From assembly GCA_027023025.1 (NCBI GenBank), contig JALVXB010000032.1, positions 1 through 32,414 of the forward strand: a stretch of 32,414 nt of DNA. The letters are read 5' to 3'. The stretch comes from Caldisericaceae bacterium (GTDB lineage: Bacteria; Caldisericota; Caldisericia; Caldisericales; Caldisericaceae). A program made the translations under genes and the position numbers. Positions 17,141 through 23,117 of the stretch are shown here, one piece after another. The notes beneath the pieces are model-generated. The model had not been told where the DNA came from and did not search any database. It saw only the letters and a list, made by a program, of their open reading frames with translations. How positions within the stretch are numbered: position 1 is the first letter of the stretch; every line of letters starts with the position of its first letter.

Positions 17141-18544
17141 CTATTTTACTGAATCTCTAAATTCTTCAGATGTCGTCGTATCTACCTTCAGGCCTAAATC
17201 ACGCAGCTTTGCCTGCACGAAGAGTGCAGCTTCAATTCGCATCCTCTGTGTTTCACATCCCGTTTCGTAAGGTTTAAAAATGTCGCCGTTCATCGTATAG
17301 TTATTGGCAAGGCATCCGCCGCTGCAATAAAAACGCGCCCAGCAGCTTGCACACTCCTTTTTATTGAACAGAAAGTTCGCCTTGCGGAACTGTTCCACCA
17401 GATCTTTTCGCTCAATTCCCGTAAAGACATTGCCCAGCCTCATTTCCACTATCCCATCAAACTGATGGCAGGGAAATATGTCTCCGTTCGGGGCAACTGC
17501 CATGTATTCCACACCCGCACCGCACCCGTGGATGCGCTTTTGAATGCAGGGGCCTGCTTCAAGGTCCACATTAAAGTGGAAGAAGTGCCACTCACCTTCC
17601 TTTTGCGATTCCACATACTCTTTTGCGAGTTTTTCGTATTCTTTTCTTAAACGCGGCAAATCCTCTTTTGATATGTTTATACCTCCGTCTTTCGTAACGA
17701 CCGGCTCAAGCGATATGTACTTAAAGCCAAAGTCGTGCAAGTCCATTACGGTTTTTGAAATTTCAAGCGTGGAATGCGTATAGGTCCCCCTTATGTAGTA
17801 ACCGCCACTTTCTTTCCTGTGCTCTGCAACCATTCTTAAATTTGGCAATATTAAGTCAAATGTGCCGCGCCCGTCAGGAAGCACGCGGAATTTATCGTTT
17901 ACTTCTTTGTTTCCGTCCAGACTCAATACGAGACTCACATCGTTGTCGTAAAGAAATTGCTCCATACTCTCCGTAAGCAAAGAGCCATTTGTCGTAAGCG
18001 TAAACCTCCACTTTTTATCCGGATAAGTGCTCCGCGCATACTTTATCGTTTTTTTTACGACCTCAAAGTCAAGTAGCGGCTCCCCGCCAAAAAAGTCTAC
18101 TTCAAGGTGTTCTCTGCCTTCGGAATTTTCGTGCAGAAAGTCAATTGCACGCTTTGCAACCTTAAAGTCCATCAAGGCACTTTTTTCGCCGTAGTTTCCC
18201 TGCTTTGCAAAACAGTACTTGCAGGCAAAGTTGCAGGCATGCGCAACATTCAGACAGAGCGACTTTAACTTCAATTCTGATTCAAAGTAATTTGGAGGTT
18301 TTGAAAAGAGCAGTCCCTGATTTATAAGGTTCTCGACTTCGCTGCGGACTTCGTTTGCGTCTCCGTATGCTTTCTCAGTTTCTTCAGTTGCATTGGAAAG
18401 GGAATCGCTCTCAATAAGTTTCCCTAAAAAATAAAATGCAGGCTCGTCAACTTCAAGTAGTGAGCCTGTGTTCACATCAAGGGCAAAGTACTCTCCGTTA
18501 AACTCAAACGGATGTACATTGCTCCCGGGATATTTTTTCCCCAT
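17141..18544 (-). CDS. scfB: Radical SAM/SPASM thioether maturase of the SCIFF peptide
   Basis: 467 residues. An N-terminal region of about 85 residues (GKKYPGSNVHPFEFNGEYF...) has the form of a peptide-recognition (RRE-like) domain. The radical SAM cluster CNFACKYC has Cys 104, 108 and 111, followed by DFFGGEPLLDFE and LTTNGSLL. The C-terminal third carries the SPASM/twitch cysteines (GPC, HGCGAG, FPCHQFDG, ECASCWARFYCSGGC, ETGC) for two auxiliary 4Fe-4S clusters. The immediate upstream gene encodes a SCIFF peptide, so this is the SCIFF maturase, which joins a cysteine sulfur to a threonine carbon in the clostridial example. The ATG is 4 nt after the peptide stop and has only a weak SD, consistent with much less enzyme than peptide. 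Confidence 0.93.
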   Translation of the reverse strand: MGKKYPGSNVHPFEFNGEYFALDVNTGSLLEVDEPAFYFLGKLIESDSLSNATEETEKAYGDANEVRSEVENLINQGLLFSKPPNYFESELKLKSLCLNVAHACNFACKYCFAKQGNYGEKSALMDFKVAKRAIDFLHENSEGREHLEVDFFGGEPLLDFEVVKKTIKYARSTYPDKKWRFTLTTNGSLLTESMEQFLYDNDVSLVLSLDGNKEVNDKFRVLPDGRGTFDLILPNLRMVAEHRKESGGYYIRGTYTHSTLEISKTVMDLHDFGFKYISLEPVVTKDGGINISKEDLPRLRKEYEKLAKEYVESQKEGEWHFFHFNVDLEAGPCIQKRIHGCGAGVEYMAVAPNGDIFPCHQFDGIVEMRLGNVFTGIERKDLVEQFRKANFLFNKKECASCWARFYCSGGCLANNYTMNGDIFKPYETGCETQRMRIEAALFVQAKLRDLGLKVDTTTSEEFRDSVK

Positions 18545-18548
18545 TAAG

Positions 18549-18713
18549 TTACCAGATCCAGCGCTTTATAGGTTTTTTGACCTCACACACCTGGTTGCCT
18601 ACCGTAACGCTCGTTTTGCAGGCAGACTTGCACGGTGTCTGGCACTCCCTGCAGTCGTGTTTTTTGTTAATATTCCAGAACGGCCTTTTTGCAACAACTT
18701 TAATGTGCCTCAT
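18549..18713 (-). CDS. scfA: SCIFF-family ribosomal peptide precursor, five-cysteine variant
   Basis: 54 residues, beginning MRHIKVVAK, with the SD GGAGGT 4 nt before the ATG. The core reads CRECQTPCKSACKTSVTVGN and then QVC. This is the SCIFF pattern C-x2-C-x3-C-x3-C-KTS-C-TVGNQ-x-C, with Cys at 21, 24, 28, 32 and 43; the expected Cys 36 is Val. From memory, the characterised clostridial SCIFF peptide forms a thioether from Cys 32 to Thr 37, and both positions are kept here with the same spacing. A basic, Trp-ending tail (PIKRWIW) follows, which I do not expect in the family. The role of SCIFF peptides is unsettled; quorum-like signalling has been proposed. It has its own promoter and is followed by scfB. 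Confidence 0.93.
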   Translation of the reverse strand: MRHIKVVAKRPFWNINKKHDCRECQTPCKSACKTSVTVGNQVCEVKKPIKRWIW

Positions 18714-18740
18714 ATTTACCTCCAATGCAAAGTTTTTTAC

Positions 18741-18772: not shown

Positions 18773-19972
18773 CTAAATTACGCCAAACAGAAGAAGCGTC
18801 TTAAAAGAAAGGTACAAAAACAACACGAAGAAAACGATACCCGTCCAGAGTTTAACAGTTGCAAGGTTTCTCTTGAACCAGCCAATAACGGCTTGCGAAG
18901 TTGCACCCTTATATACGAAGTAAACGATTGCAATAAGTGGAAGTACAAACATTACATTGTACAGAATAAGGTAAAACGCTGCCTTCGCCTTTAACTGAGG
19001 AATGCTGTAAATGTAAACGATCGTGGGCAAGTAAGTCTGTCCCGTGCAGGAGAAAGAAACGATCGATACGGGAAAAGAAACGAGAAAAGAAAACAGCGCC
19101 GTTCCCTGCACGCGTGGGTTCCTTAAAAGAGAGTGAATCGTGCGCTTTTCAGTTCCAGAAAGCTGCAAAACCATTTCTGCAGCCTTTCCTTTTTTTACCT
19201 TTATGTAATCCTGCACGGTAAGAATTGCAAAAATAAGCGTCGCAACCGCAGTTGCAAGGTAAACCCACTTTGCGATGTCGTCAAAGTACCTCCACTTCGA
19301 CACCACGCTGAACAAACCGATGCCAAGCAAAAAGTAGGAAAGCCCAAAGCCTACAATAAAGGACGAGCCCACTACGAGAATTTCCTTCCGCGTTTTCTTT
19401 TTCAGAAGAAGAAACGATATAAAAAATATCAAAACCGTAAATGCGCACGGATTGTAGCCGTCGATAAGCCCTGCACCTATCACGGTAAGCACGCCAAACT
19501 TTTTAAATGCTTCAACCATCTGGTTTTTAGCACCTTTCGTTTTACCGTTTAACACCTTTTCGAGGAATGCAGTATCCGCATAATTATAATTTTTGACAGC
19601 ATTCTCTACTTCTTTTAACGCACTTACCCGCACGAAGTACTTCTTTCCGATAAATACAGCAGGCGTCGTATTTCTCAAATTGCTCGGGACATTATACGCC
19701 TCGTCAAAGTGGAGCAGCAACGCACGGCTTTTATCGTCTGCCATGGAGAACTCAATTATGTGCATATTGGGATAGAGTTCTTTCAGCGAATTAAGGAAGT
19801 TACGCGTGATCGTGCACTCCTCACACCCAGGTGTTGTAAAAACTACGACGGGAATTTCAGCCTTTCCGCTATTTGCTGCACACACCCCGTGCACAAAGAC
19901 GGGCAAAACGGATAAAACTAAAACGAGCAGCAGTAAAATCGCTGCTGCTCTTTTAATGCGCAAAGACTTCAT
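18773..19972 (-). CDS. Thioredoxin-CcdA/DsbD-like fusion, thiol-disulfide electron carrier
   Basis: 399 residues from ATG 19972, 2 nt after the upstream stop; a longer reading would run into the upstream gene. A signal peptide (basic start, Leu/Val-rich core to about residue 30) is followed by a thioredoxin-like domain with VVVFTTPGCEEC (Cys 50 and 53) and NTTPAVFIGKKYFV. The C-terminal part has about six helices with the CcdA/DsbD cysteines in DGYNPCAFTVLIFFISF and VSFSCTGQTYLP. Such proteins pass reducing power from cytoplasmic thioredoxin through the membrane to exported thiols. It is last in an operon with a secreted stalk protein and a membrane-anchored thioredoxin, so it likely keeps exported cysteines reduced or shuffles their disulfides. 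Confidence 0.88.
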   Translation of the reverse strand: MKSLRIKRAAAILLLLVLVLSVLPVFVHGVCAANSGKAEIPVVVFTTPGCEECTITRNFLNSLKELYPNMHIIEFSMADDKSRALLLHFDEAYNVPSNLRNTTPAVFIGKKYFVRVSALKEVENAVKNYNYADTAFLEKVLNGKTKGAKNQMVEAFKKFGVLTVIGAGLIDGYNPCAFTVLIFFISFLLLKKKTRKEILVVGSSFIVGFGLSYFLLGIGLFSVVSKWRYFDDIAKWVYLATAVATLIFAILTVQDYIKVKKGKAAEMVLQLSGTEKRTIHSLLRNPRVQGTALFSFLVSFPVSIVSFSCTGQTYLPTIVYIYSIPQLKAKAAFYLILYNVMFVLPLIAIVYFVYKGATSQAVIGWFKRNLATVKLWTGIVFFVLFLYLSFKTLLLFGVI

Positions 19973-19974
19973 CG

Positions 19975-22014
19975 TTACGGTCCCTGTATAGTTATGCTGT
20001 GTGTTTTTCCGTTCCACTGGACATTAAATCCCAGTGCTTCCACGACGAAACGAAGAGGGATAAATGTTCTGTTGTGTTTTATAATCGGCGGCTGGTCCAG
20101 CGTATAAGCAACGCCGTTCACATAAGCAATTTTGGAGTTTATCGTAAGTTTCAAAGTTTTGCCGTTAAGTTCTATCGTTACCGTTCTGGTTGCAGCATCC
20201 CACTGGACCGTTCCGCCTAAAAACTCCACGACGAAGCGCACCGGAACGAGCGTCCTGTTCGTTTTCGGATCAATAAACGGAGCAACATCCATTTGTTTTT
20301 TGCTCTTGCCGACGAGTGCAGACTTTTTCCCAATCGTAAGGCACACTTTTTTGGTATGCGGCTTGTAAATCACGGTAAGCGTTTCTTCTGCACTTTTTCC
20401 TGAAAGAGGATATACTGCTTTAAGTATTATTGGCAGTATTTTCGTATGTTCTTTTGGAACAAAACTATACGAAAATGTACCGTCAGGCTCAACACTTACT
20501 TCTTTGCCGTTGATGTAGAGAAGTGAAGAAGCAGGGGATACGCTCCCTTTTACGGTGATCGTTTTAGTGGTAACTTCTGCCCAATCACCTGGATAAGAAA
20601 CGGTAATCCGTGGAACAGTCGTATCATAGTTAATAATTAAAGTTACTTTCGTTGCGTTGCCTGCAATGTCCACTGCGCTTATAAGGAATGTATTTTTACC
20701 AGGAATAAGTTTTACCTCTTTTCCAAAGGAGAAGTCCTTCTTTTCAAGAACAGGCCTCCCGTTTATGTACACCGAACAAGGTTCACTCGTTTTACCGGAT
20801 ATCCTGATGGAAGACTTCCCCGTTGCAAACGGACTTTTATCAGGGTTCGTTATGGTAAGGATTGGCGCCTTAGTATCCACTTTAAATACTACTGAACGAA
20901 CTTCTTCTTTCAGATCGCCTGCGGTGCTGTAGAAGTAAAGCGTGTGCACGCCGTCTGGCACTTTGAAAGGCGCTACATACTGGACAAATTTTCCGTCGTC
21001 AAGTTTGTAAAAAGTTTTTACCGTTACGCCTTTCAGATTCGTTTCTGCACCGAGAGTTACGGTAGGTGCCGTTTTAAAGTATCCACTCGTCCCGTCAGGA
21101 GATTCAGGCACGGTGTCTATGTGAGTAAATACCGTAAACTGTTGCTTAATAGTAAACTTTGCTTCGACTTTGTCTGGTTCGTTATCCGTCCATATGTAAA
21201 GGCCGTAGTCTCCGCCTTTTGTGGGATTAACGATTCCAAAAGCACTTTTTATCTCCAGCATACACTTTCGGTCTTTGTTTATGGACCGCCTTAAAGTAAA
21301 TGCAAGAGTTCTTCCCAAAAGTTCTACTTTTTTCGGGCTGAATCCGTTTATAATGACCTCATCCTCGTTTAAAGAAGACGGAAACTTCGTCCCTTCCGGG
21401 AATTCCACATATATCTTCTGTCCGTTATTTAAGTTTCCCAGATCGCCTGTCGTAAAGTTAACTTTGTAGTCAGCAGCAAGCCCTGCGGTTTTCGGGTCAA
21501 CGCTGACGGAAACATCTTTTAAGTGGGTAGAGCCAATCTCGTAAAAGTTAGACTTTTCCTTGCCCTGGCGGTTCGTCCACACCGCAAGCTGGTACTTACC
21601 CGGTTTGGACGGATTCCAGATATTTGCCTGAGGCTTAATCACCACACTTATCTGCTCACCTTTTTTCAGTATGATGCCGCCAGGGACAGTAAGATATATC
21701 GTATTTGGAATGTCAAGGACTCTTCCTGCACGGGACGGTTTATAGCCATTAATACTGAAAAAGTTAAGGTGCCAGTTGTGCGGGCAGGAGCAGGGCAAGT
21801 GCGTGCCCTCTGGAAAAGTAATGAGAATGTTGTCTTTTCCGCCAATAAGGTCTGCTTCAGTTACGAAAGAAATGTCGTATTCTGCAAGTGACGCACGCAG
21901 AGGCGGTTTCACCGTAACTTTGACCGAACTATCTGCCTTTACGAACCCTACAGGCAGAATAACAGTTGCCGTAATAAAAATCGCAATCAATATACTTATT
22001 ATTCTTCTTTTCAC
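19975..22014 (-). CDS. Secreted multidomain protein with Ig-like repeats and C-terminal stalk (CuAO-N1-like) domain
   Basis: 679 residues from a GTG at 22014 with SD AGGAGG. An N-terminal signal peptide (MKRRIISILIAIFITATVIL) ends near KADSS. The first 290 residues hold two similar beta-rich modules (ITFPEGTHLPCSCP... and VEFPEGTKFPSSL... with NGYKPSRAGR / NGFSPKKVELLGR), then Ig-like modules with VDTKAPILTI and YDTTVPRITV. The last 120 residues are a tandem stalk domain: RTLVPVRFVVEFLGGTVQWD and RTFIPLRFVVEALGFNVQWN. It is probably a cell-surface or envelope protein. It carries several cysteines (CSCP near residue 76, others at KCM and EPCS), unusual for surface proteins and consistent with redox partners on both sides. 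Confidence 0.8.
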   Translation of the reverse strand: MKRRIISILIAIFITATVILPVGFVKADSSVKVTVKPPLRASLAEYDISFVTEADLIGGKDNILITFPEGTHLPCSCPHNWHLNFFSINGYKPSRAGRVLDIPNTIYLTVPGGIILKKGEQISVVIKPQANIWNPSKPGKYQLAVWTNRQGKEKSNFYEIGSTHLKDVSVSVDPKTAGLAADYKVNFTTGDLGNLNNGQKIYVEFPEGTKFPSSLNEDEVIINGFSPKKVELLGRTLAFTLRRSINKDRKCMLEIKSAFGIVNPTKGGDYGLYIWTDNEPDKVEAKFTIKQQFTVFTHIDTVPESPDGTSGYFKTAPTVTLGAETNLKGVTVKTFYKLDDGKFVQYVAPFKVPDGVHTLYFYSTAGDLKEEVRSVVFKVDTKAPILTITNPDKSPFATGKSSIRISGKTSEPCSVYINGRPVLEKKDFSFGKEVKLIPGKNTFLISAVDIAGNATKVTLIINYDTTVPRITVSYPGDWAEVTTKTITVKGSVSPASSLLYINGKEVSVEPDGTFSYSFVPKEHTKILPIILKAVYPLSGKSAEETLTVIYKPHTKKVCLTIGKKSALVGKSKKQMDVAPFIDPKTNRTLVPVRFVVEFLGGTVQWDAATRTVTIELNGKTLKLTINSKIAYVNGVAYTLDQPPIIKHNRTFIPLRFVVEALGFNVQWNGKTHSITIQGP

Positions 22015-23117
22015 TTCTTGCCTCCTAAAAATTCTTTTATGTTCGTCGTCGTATTAAGAGTGGGTTCTCCCGGCCCTCTATAATATAATTTAAGACCTTT
22101 GTTAATAAGTTCTATGTACGGCGATATGTCAATTTTTGCCTTTTTTGCATAAGAGCGATTCGGGTCAACGACTACGATCGTGTTCTTTGGAAGGTGTTCC
22201 GTAAGGTGTTCTGCGTCCGCTGCCTTATCGCTAAAGGAAAAAACGATAAATTGCACATTTGAAAGGTCGTAACCACCGTGATTTATTATCCACGCAAGTC
22301 GGTTAATGCTCTCAACGCAGCCGCCGCAGTTCGGGTTTCCACCGATAAGGAATAGTTTTTTATTGGCAAAGTCGGACAACTTGTATGTTTTTCCATTGGT
22401 TGCAGGAAACTCAAAGTCAGGTACCTTCGTACCTCTGCCTGCAAAAATAAACTCTCCGTTTGTAAGTTTGTCGTATCTATTTGCACCGTACTTCTCTATG
22501 TAAAATAGAGTCATTGCTTCGCGCACCTTGTTCTTTATAAGAAGAGCCGTATTACTGTCGTCTGTGTAAATACCGTCTATTCGCTTAATCATCTGCACAG
22601 CACTTTTACCTTTAAACGATTTAAAAAACTCGTTAAAGTTTACCTTGCCGCCGATGTCAAAGTAAGTGGGTTTGTAAGGCTTAAACCCCAAAATTGTCAG
22701 ATTATCGTTAACGACGAGTAGCATAAATGCCTCGTCAGGAATCTTTTTGGACTTTGCTGCATCAGGATTGTCGACAAAGATAACGGCTTCTTCACCTATC
22801 TTTTTGCCGTCCTTTAAAAGGTCTTCTGCAGCAAAGCTGTCTGCAACATACAAACTATTGGAAAGTGCCCTGAGGTTCGTAATCTGAGGGTTGAAACCAA
22901 GAATTTCCTTCCGCGCCTGCTCTTTTGTAATCGCTTTGGTGTATTTAGAGATACGCGCCTGGGGTATGACAAATGCAGCAAATACGATGCCTATAACGAT
23001 AGCGGCAATTATCACATTCAGGATCTGCCTGTCTTTTCGGTAAACTTTACGCTTTGAAACACTCTGTTTTTTACTCTTCTTCTTTATCTTCTTCCTGTTT
23101 TCCCTTGCCCTGCTCAT
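22011..23117 (-). CDS. Membrane-anchored thioredoxin-like (TlpA/redoxin) protein
   Basis: 368 residues. A very basic cytoplasmic N-terminus (RKKIKKKSKKQSVSKRK) precedes one membrane helix at about residues 33-53, so the rest is outside. The C-terminal third is a redoxin domain: GTKVPDFEFPATNGKTYKLS, then LIGGNPNCGGCVESINRLAW with Cys 264 and 267, and IVVVDPNRSYAKKAKI. The middle domain (residues about 60-215) is not recognised; its IDGIYTDDSNTALLIKNKV segment is faintly like an FMN-binding module. The GTGA overlap with the stalk-protein gene ties their translation. SD GGAGGT and a consensus promoter mark it as first gene of the three-gene operon. The expected role is reducing or isomerising disulfides of exported proteins. 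Confidence 0.83.
   Translation of the reverse strand: MSRARENRKKIKKKSKKQSVSKRKVYRKDRQILNVIIAAIVIGIVFAAFVIPQARISKYTKAITKEQARKEILGFNPQITNLRALSNSLYVADSFAAEDLLKDGKKIGEEAVIFVDNPDAAKSKKIPDEAFMLLVVNDNLTILGFKPYKPTYFDIGGKVNFNEFFKSFKGKSAVQMIKRIDGIYTDDSNTALLIKNKVREAMTLFYIEKYGANRYDKLTNGEFIFAGRGTKVPDFEFPATNGKTYKLSDFANKKLFLIGGNPNCGGCVESINRLAWIINHGGYDLSNVQFIVFSFSDKAADAEHLTEHLPKNTIVVVDPNRSYAKKAKIDISPYIELINKGLKLYYRGPGEPTLNTTTNIKEFLGGKK

Follow-up and report, generated by a model that had tools for sequence, protein, structure and literature searches.

A five-cysteine SCIFF precursor and its radical SAM/SPASM maturase in Caldisericaceae, with variation at position 36 and at the donor cysteine among related peptides

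SCIFF is among the commonest modified peptides of Clostridia, where the described system consists of the precursor ScfA and the maturase ScfB, as in CteA-CteB ("thermocellin") of Clostridium thermocellum and Tte1186a-Tte1186 of Caldanaerobacter. The role of the peptide is unsettled and the published acceptor threonines conflict: in vitro work (Bruender 2016, Grove 2017) gave a link between Cys32 and Thr37, whereas co-expression (Hudson 2019) gave a Cys32-Thr34 link via the gamma carbon, both as reported in reviews (PMC8326336, PMC8172795). The mechanism described in the CteB literature (PMC8326336) involves the leader and the RRE, a radical on threonine, and Cys32 at an auxiliary cluster. In a 2017 study, 234 radical SAM genes were found next to scfA, each scoring well over the ScfB cut-off, and clear ScfA homologues were judged functionally equivalent (PMC5300114). 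A search of the open-access literature, with most subscription papers outside it, returned no paper on a SCIFF of Caldisericota or on a five-cysteine SCIFF.

The DNA analysed here (the window) is a stretch of 32,414 nucleotides from a Caldisericaceae bacterium (assembly GCA_027023025.1, contig JALVXB010000032.1), of phylum Caldisericota and thus the non-clostridial host for which the original prediction had proposed a divergent branch of the family. Its scfA gene, an open reading frame at exactly 18549..18713 (-), encodes 54 amino acids plus a stop, MRHIKVVAKRPFWNINKKHDCRECQTPCKSACKTSVTVGNQVCEVKKPIKRWIW. With a ribosome-binding site, GGAGG (18719..18723, (-)), 5 nt upstream of it, the ATG at 18713 is preferable as start codon to the in-frame TTG at 18725. 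The translation holds five cysteines, at positions 21, 24, 28, 32 and 43, and valine at residue 36 (codon 18606..18608, (-)), the place of a cysteine in Clostridia-like SCIFFs. The core from Cys21 to Cys43, as defined by the sequence and alignments, is CRECQTPCKSACKTSVTVGNQVC (18585..18653, (-)), and is followed by a C-terminal tail, EVKKPIKRWIW, with an aromatic-x-aromatic end (18552..18584, (-)). The peptide passes both family models, TIGR03973 (63.9 bits, E 9.4e-18, cut-off 50) and PF13165 (63.5 bits, gathering threshold 27), and was the only SCIFF match of a family-model search in the 1.66-Mb, 99.9% complete genome. It lacks the eponymous six cysteines in 45 residues, having only five, and is regarded as a variant SCIFF because the curated model does not demand the sixth; the "six cysteines" of the name are inexact. 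The donor Cys32 and both possible acceptors, Thr34 and Thr37, are present, and the gene adjoins a ScfB maturase.

That maturase gene, scfB (17141..18544, (-)), begins 4 nt beyond the stop of scfA and encodes 467 amino acids comprising RRE, radical SAM and SPASM regions. The protein scores 504.6 bits on the SCIFF maturase model TIGR03974, above the equivalog cut-off of 425, and matches the CteB crystal structure (5wgg/5why) with 439.5 bits over a nearly full-length alignment. Conserved columns and the sequence place the radical SAM motif, C104-x3-C108-x2-C111, at 18212..18235 (-), and the SPASM region at 17255..17548 (-) (TIGR04085, 68.9 bits; PF13186), with Cys 333, 341, 359, 398, 401, 407, 411 and 430; all eleven conserved radical SAM and SPASM cysteines are kept. 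The original reading of a SCIFF precursor without Cys36, beside a complete maturase, is thereby borne out by both curated cut-offs and by the residues themselves. It is very unlikely that the locus is another radical SAM/SPASM peptide system merely resembling SCIFF, such as that of PapB, a nif11-like one or that of the "not_ScfB" orphan maturase: the model of the last (NF040492) does give 476.6 bits, but its cut-off of 855 is far higher and here a SCIFF peptide is present, the PapB (287.5 bits, cut-off 340) and nif11 models also remain below their cut-offs, and TIGR03974 and TIGR03973 are both passed. The QhpD model was likewise not reached (251.2 bits, cut-off 453). Upstream of scfA, the window (18773-23117, (-)) encodes a membrane protein with a glutaredoxin-like domain and a redoxin-domain protein. 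These redox neighbours were rejected as a clue to function, being shared with one genome only (G002), while other Caldisericota have unrelated neighbours.

The locus is best read, with good confidence, as a genuine, expressed-looking two-gene SCIFF (ranthipeptide) cassette in which ScfB joins Cys32 to a nearby threonine and position 36 takes no part. The N-terminal RRE of ScfB would bind the ScfA leader, and the radical SAM centre, aided by the SPASM auxiliary clusters, would perform radical chemistry on the threonine. The sulfur of Cys32, held at an auxiliary cluster, would then bond to that residue, more likely Thr34 than Thr37. Position 36 would stay outside the bond, so that Cys, Val, Ser or Met could be tolerated there without loss of the cassette.

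The peptide occurs in 47 of 61 near relatives. In the seven Caldisericota genomes that lack it (G001, G003, G005, G027, G039, G049 and G052), ScfB-like matches likewise did not exceed about 77 bits, which indicates that the two genes are retained or lost as a pair; the cassette is dispensable, since G003, which is 99% complete, has none. The SCIFF core was read in 174 loci, every fetched locus giving one, from genomes picked by the family model, which may overlook strongly diverged peptides. Of these loci, 127 have cysteine at position 36 and 47 another residue. All 15 Caldisericaceae loci have Val36, the Cryosericum family (f2) has Ser in 14 and Cys in one, family f3 has Met (4/4) and family f4 Asn (5/5), and the eight loci of families f5, f6 and f7 have Cys. 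Three genomes of a small separate phylum outside Caldisericota (G098, G981 and G982; loci L086, L135 and L136) all show Met36, together with a KKPLGKWTW-type tail. From this distribution, Cys36 is dispensable for retention of the cassette, which addresses the doubt raised at the outset as to whether it is needed at all.

The five-cysteine form with a KKP[IV]KRWIW tail is the rule in Caldisericaceae. It is therefore not a lone oddity: Val36 and the tail recur in all 15 SCIFF-bearing genomes of the family that were read, and the form is already common inside the clade. Valine is encoded by GTT in five of these loci, GTA in nine and GTG in one, so that Val itself seems to be kept. Over its 54 codons, the window scfA differs from that of locus L008 by 28 synonymous changes against 7 nonsynonymous ones, which shows strong purifying selection on peptide genes of this type. 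A sequencing error at Val36, or a decaying copy of scfA, is hardly credible: the reading was rejected on the 15 loci with valine in three codons, the few nonsynonymous differences, the GGAGG site and the intact maturase.

Outside Caldisericota, Cys36 was found in all 111 Clostridia-like loci read, a sample drawn across the score range (30 genomes from the top, 40 from the middle and 41 with low scores). In the 391 genomes of this class no SCIFF with another residue at position 36 was detected by a degenerate pattern (A-C-K-T-S-(non-Cys)) that covers residues with codons starting with A, C or G, thus omitting TCN serine, F, Y, W and TTR leucine, and that recovers the V, M and I forms among the loci read. 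Bacilli-like loci are more varied, with Cys in seven, Ile in two, and Met, Val, Leu and Ala in one each. Both class labels were assigned from SCIFF prevalence (322/391 Clostridia-like and 13/301 Bacilli-like genomes), the former also from a yajC-like gene before scfA in locus L084. In three Clostridia-like loci (L154, L160 and L163) a single open frame of 95-112 codons joins two complete SCIFF repeats. In the maturase tree, every Caldisericota family with more than one member forms one clade and, without a resolved root, the pattern of Cys and non-Cys at position 36 requires at least four changes. Loss of Cys36 outside Clostridia is not separable from gain in Clostridia, because rooting with other SPASM enzymes puts the outgroups on long branches (3.6 and 8.4 changes per column) and the fork has a support of 75. 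The maturases of the small phylum of G098 group with those of Caldisericota, which would fit either shared descent or transfer.

The same 174 loci bear on the acceptor of the cross-link. Cys32 is kept in 169 of them and Thr34 in 173, with serine in the remaining one; Thr37 is kept in 150, being replaced by Gly in 23 and Ala in one, and all 24 of these peptides retain Cys36. As neither Gly nor Ala has a gamma carbon, the reported gamma bond would be impossible at position 37 in these peptides. The near-universal presence of Thr34 and the replacement of Thr37 in 24/174 loci favour Thr34 as the general cross-link site. The original prediction had stressed the pair Cys32 and Thr37; the residues are indeed there, at the expected places, but a Thr37 linkage is only one of two published assignments, and the emphasis on it is doubtful given its replacement.

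The five loci without Cys32 all belong to f4, a family of Caldisericia known from five MAGs in two genera (L043-L047; also L076, L077, L079, L080 and L082), including Caldisericales bacterium AS27yjCOA_144 and UR.bin110 and the Caldisericia bacterium Go_SlDig bins. Their peptide core reads CRECQTPCKSAAKTANT[IT][SG]NQ[IV]C, with Ala in place of the donor Cys32 (5/5), Ala35 for Ser35, Asn36 and one new cysteine in the leader, and each genome gave one SCIFF match only. The maturase gene adjoins that of the peptide, with an open frame of 441 or 477 codons; its product has every conserved Fe-S cysteine and agrees at 60 of the 64 columns with at least 95% conservation in the other maturases, differing at F112, T184, S278 and F386 (window numbering). 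An AlphaFold model of the f4 maturase (pLDDT 76) has CteB as its closest fold (TM 0.82). Within the genus g14, the peptides differ by 4-5 synonymous and 0-1 nonsynonymous changes and the maturases by about 79-91 and 28-39, respectively, so that both genes are under purifying selection. In this genus (L043-L046) the maturase frame offers neither ATG nor GTG nor TTG ahead of the RRE region, and the counterpart of the ATG of f5 and f6, 10 nt upstream of the scfA stop, is a CTG; either a non-standard start or a frameshift could account for this.

Two f4 peptides scored 45.3 and 39.8 on TIGR03973 (cut-off 50) and the maturases 362.5 and 387.1 on TIGR03974 (cut-off 425), while the peptides passed Pfam PF13165 (45 and 40, threshold 27). 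Because both proteins fall below their cut-offs, the pair would go unnamed in NCBIfam annotation, and the f4 peptides are SCIFF-like rather than SCIFF. This is at odds with the picture of uniform, equivalent ScfA/ScfB pairs (PMC5300114). In the maturase tree f4 lies within Caldisericia beside f5 and f6 (support 94-96), and since these neighbours carry both Cys32 and Cys36, the simplest reading is that loss of Cys32 is a derived state. As an intact maturase has been kept with a peptide lacking Cys32, a retained peptide-maturase pair alone is no proof of the Cys32 thioether.

The example of this sister family, and the divergence of the enzyme branch from that of Clostridia in the tree, could also be taken to mean that loss of Cys36 marks a different product, the Caldisericaceae ScfB forming another bond (with, for example, Cys28 or Cys43 as donor) or acting without a Cys32 thioether. 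Caldisericaceae, however, keep Cys32, Thr34 and the entire KSACKTS-T[VI]GNQ core, and the window maturase lies above the equivalog cut-off, which makes such a change of product unlikely and leaves the Cys32 thioether as the preferred reading for the window.

Cys21, Cys24, Cys28 and Cys43 are the sole near-universal cysteines in the 174 loci, f4 included. The one replacement noted at Cys21 is by histidine in a Bacilli-like SCIFF (L101, HGECQTSCQSACKTSCGVANQQC), a single case that would fit a metal site. These four cysteines may bind metal or form disulfides. A search for solved structures of a SCIFF peptide gave none, and the AlphaFold model of the window peptide, made with 28 sequences, shows no secondary structure (mean pLDDT 48.9); a four-thiol site has no structural support because the model has no fold. 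We tentatively raise the possibility that the constant functional core of SCIFF is C21-x2-C24-x3-C28-x14-C43 rather than the Cys32 thioether, given that f4 keeps exactly these core cysteines, in addition to that of its leader, and a competent-looking maturase. The f4 enzyme would then use another donor and acceptor (such as Cys28, with Thr34 or Asn36) or be a leader-guided enzyme that forms no thioether. If this were true, SCIFF would be a small thiol or metal-binding protein and the cross-link a clade-specific addition.

The KKPIKRWIW extension pointed out in the original prediction is common to Caldisericaceae, where all 15 loci have it with synonymous codon changes, and has variants throughout the class. 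No tryptophan occurs in the tails of the 124 Clostridia-like and Bacilli-like peptides read. In Caldisericia and the small phylum of G098 the peptides end in WIW (19), FIW (15), WIL (5), WTW (3), YIF (2), FVF (2) or WMF (1), and f7, a family of the outer class, has no aromatic-x-aromatic end. The aromatic tail thus appears to characterise Caldisericia as a class, together with that small phylum, and to be maintained as peptide sequence. In f5 (2/3 loci), f6 and the phylum of G098, scfB may start with an [A/G]TG embedded in the W-[IT]-W codons of scfA, 10 nt ahead of its stop. Candidates for such an overlap, with the start in W-I-W or W-T-W codons, are loci L019, L033, L035, L086, L135 and L136. 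Gene overlap may therefore have shaped the origin of the tail; that the tail is mainly its by-product, TGG-AT(T/C)-TGG-TA(A/G) supplying an [A/G]TG-GAT start for scfB with no role in the peptide, seems rather improbable. In f1 (Caldisericaceae) and f2, the scfB start almost always comes downstream of the scfA stop and the peptides nevertheless retain W/F-I-W through synonymous changes of Ile and Arg codons, and f3 keeps aromatic-x-aromatic ends (YIF, FVF) without TGG codons. Conservation of this kind, where scfB starts past the stop, suggests that the tail is selected as peptide sequence.

The non-clostridial variants amount to a natural mutant series, in which position 36 is free, Thr37 replaceable and Thr34 nearly universal, and the dispensing with the donor cysteine by f4, which kept the enzyme, bears on whether the system exists for the sake of the thioether. 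This wider pattern of a free position 36, a replaceable Thr37 and a donor-less lineage is more interesting than the window alone. Compared with the clostridial SCIFF, the window has the same core (CxxCQTxCxSACKTSxTVGNQxC), an MKHIK-like leader start, an RRE/radical SAM/SPASM maturase and adjacent genes, and differs in Val36 instead of Cys36, in the KKPIKRWIW tail and in its host outside Clostridia. The neighbourhood is also different, with a yajC-like gene preceding scfA in the Clostridia-like locus L084 and redox genes in the window. The f4 pair has the peptide architecture of the window and an adjacent intact maturase, and is set apart by Ala32, Ala35, Asn36, the leader cysteine and the tail SPWIL. 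PapB/freyrasin ranthipeptides resemble the window system in their SPASM-type maturase and non-alpha thioether chemistry (PMC8172795), but have Cys-x3-Asp motifs and six bonds. QhpD, the maturase of quinohemoprotein amine dehydrogenase, is a homologous radical SAM/SPASM enzyme that makes Cys-Asp/Glu thioethers (PMC8326336) and, unlike the window ScfB, acts on a protein substrate.
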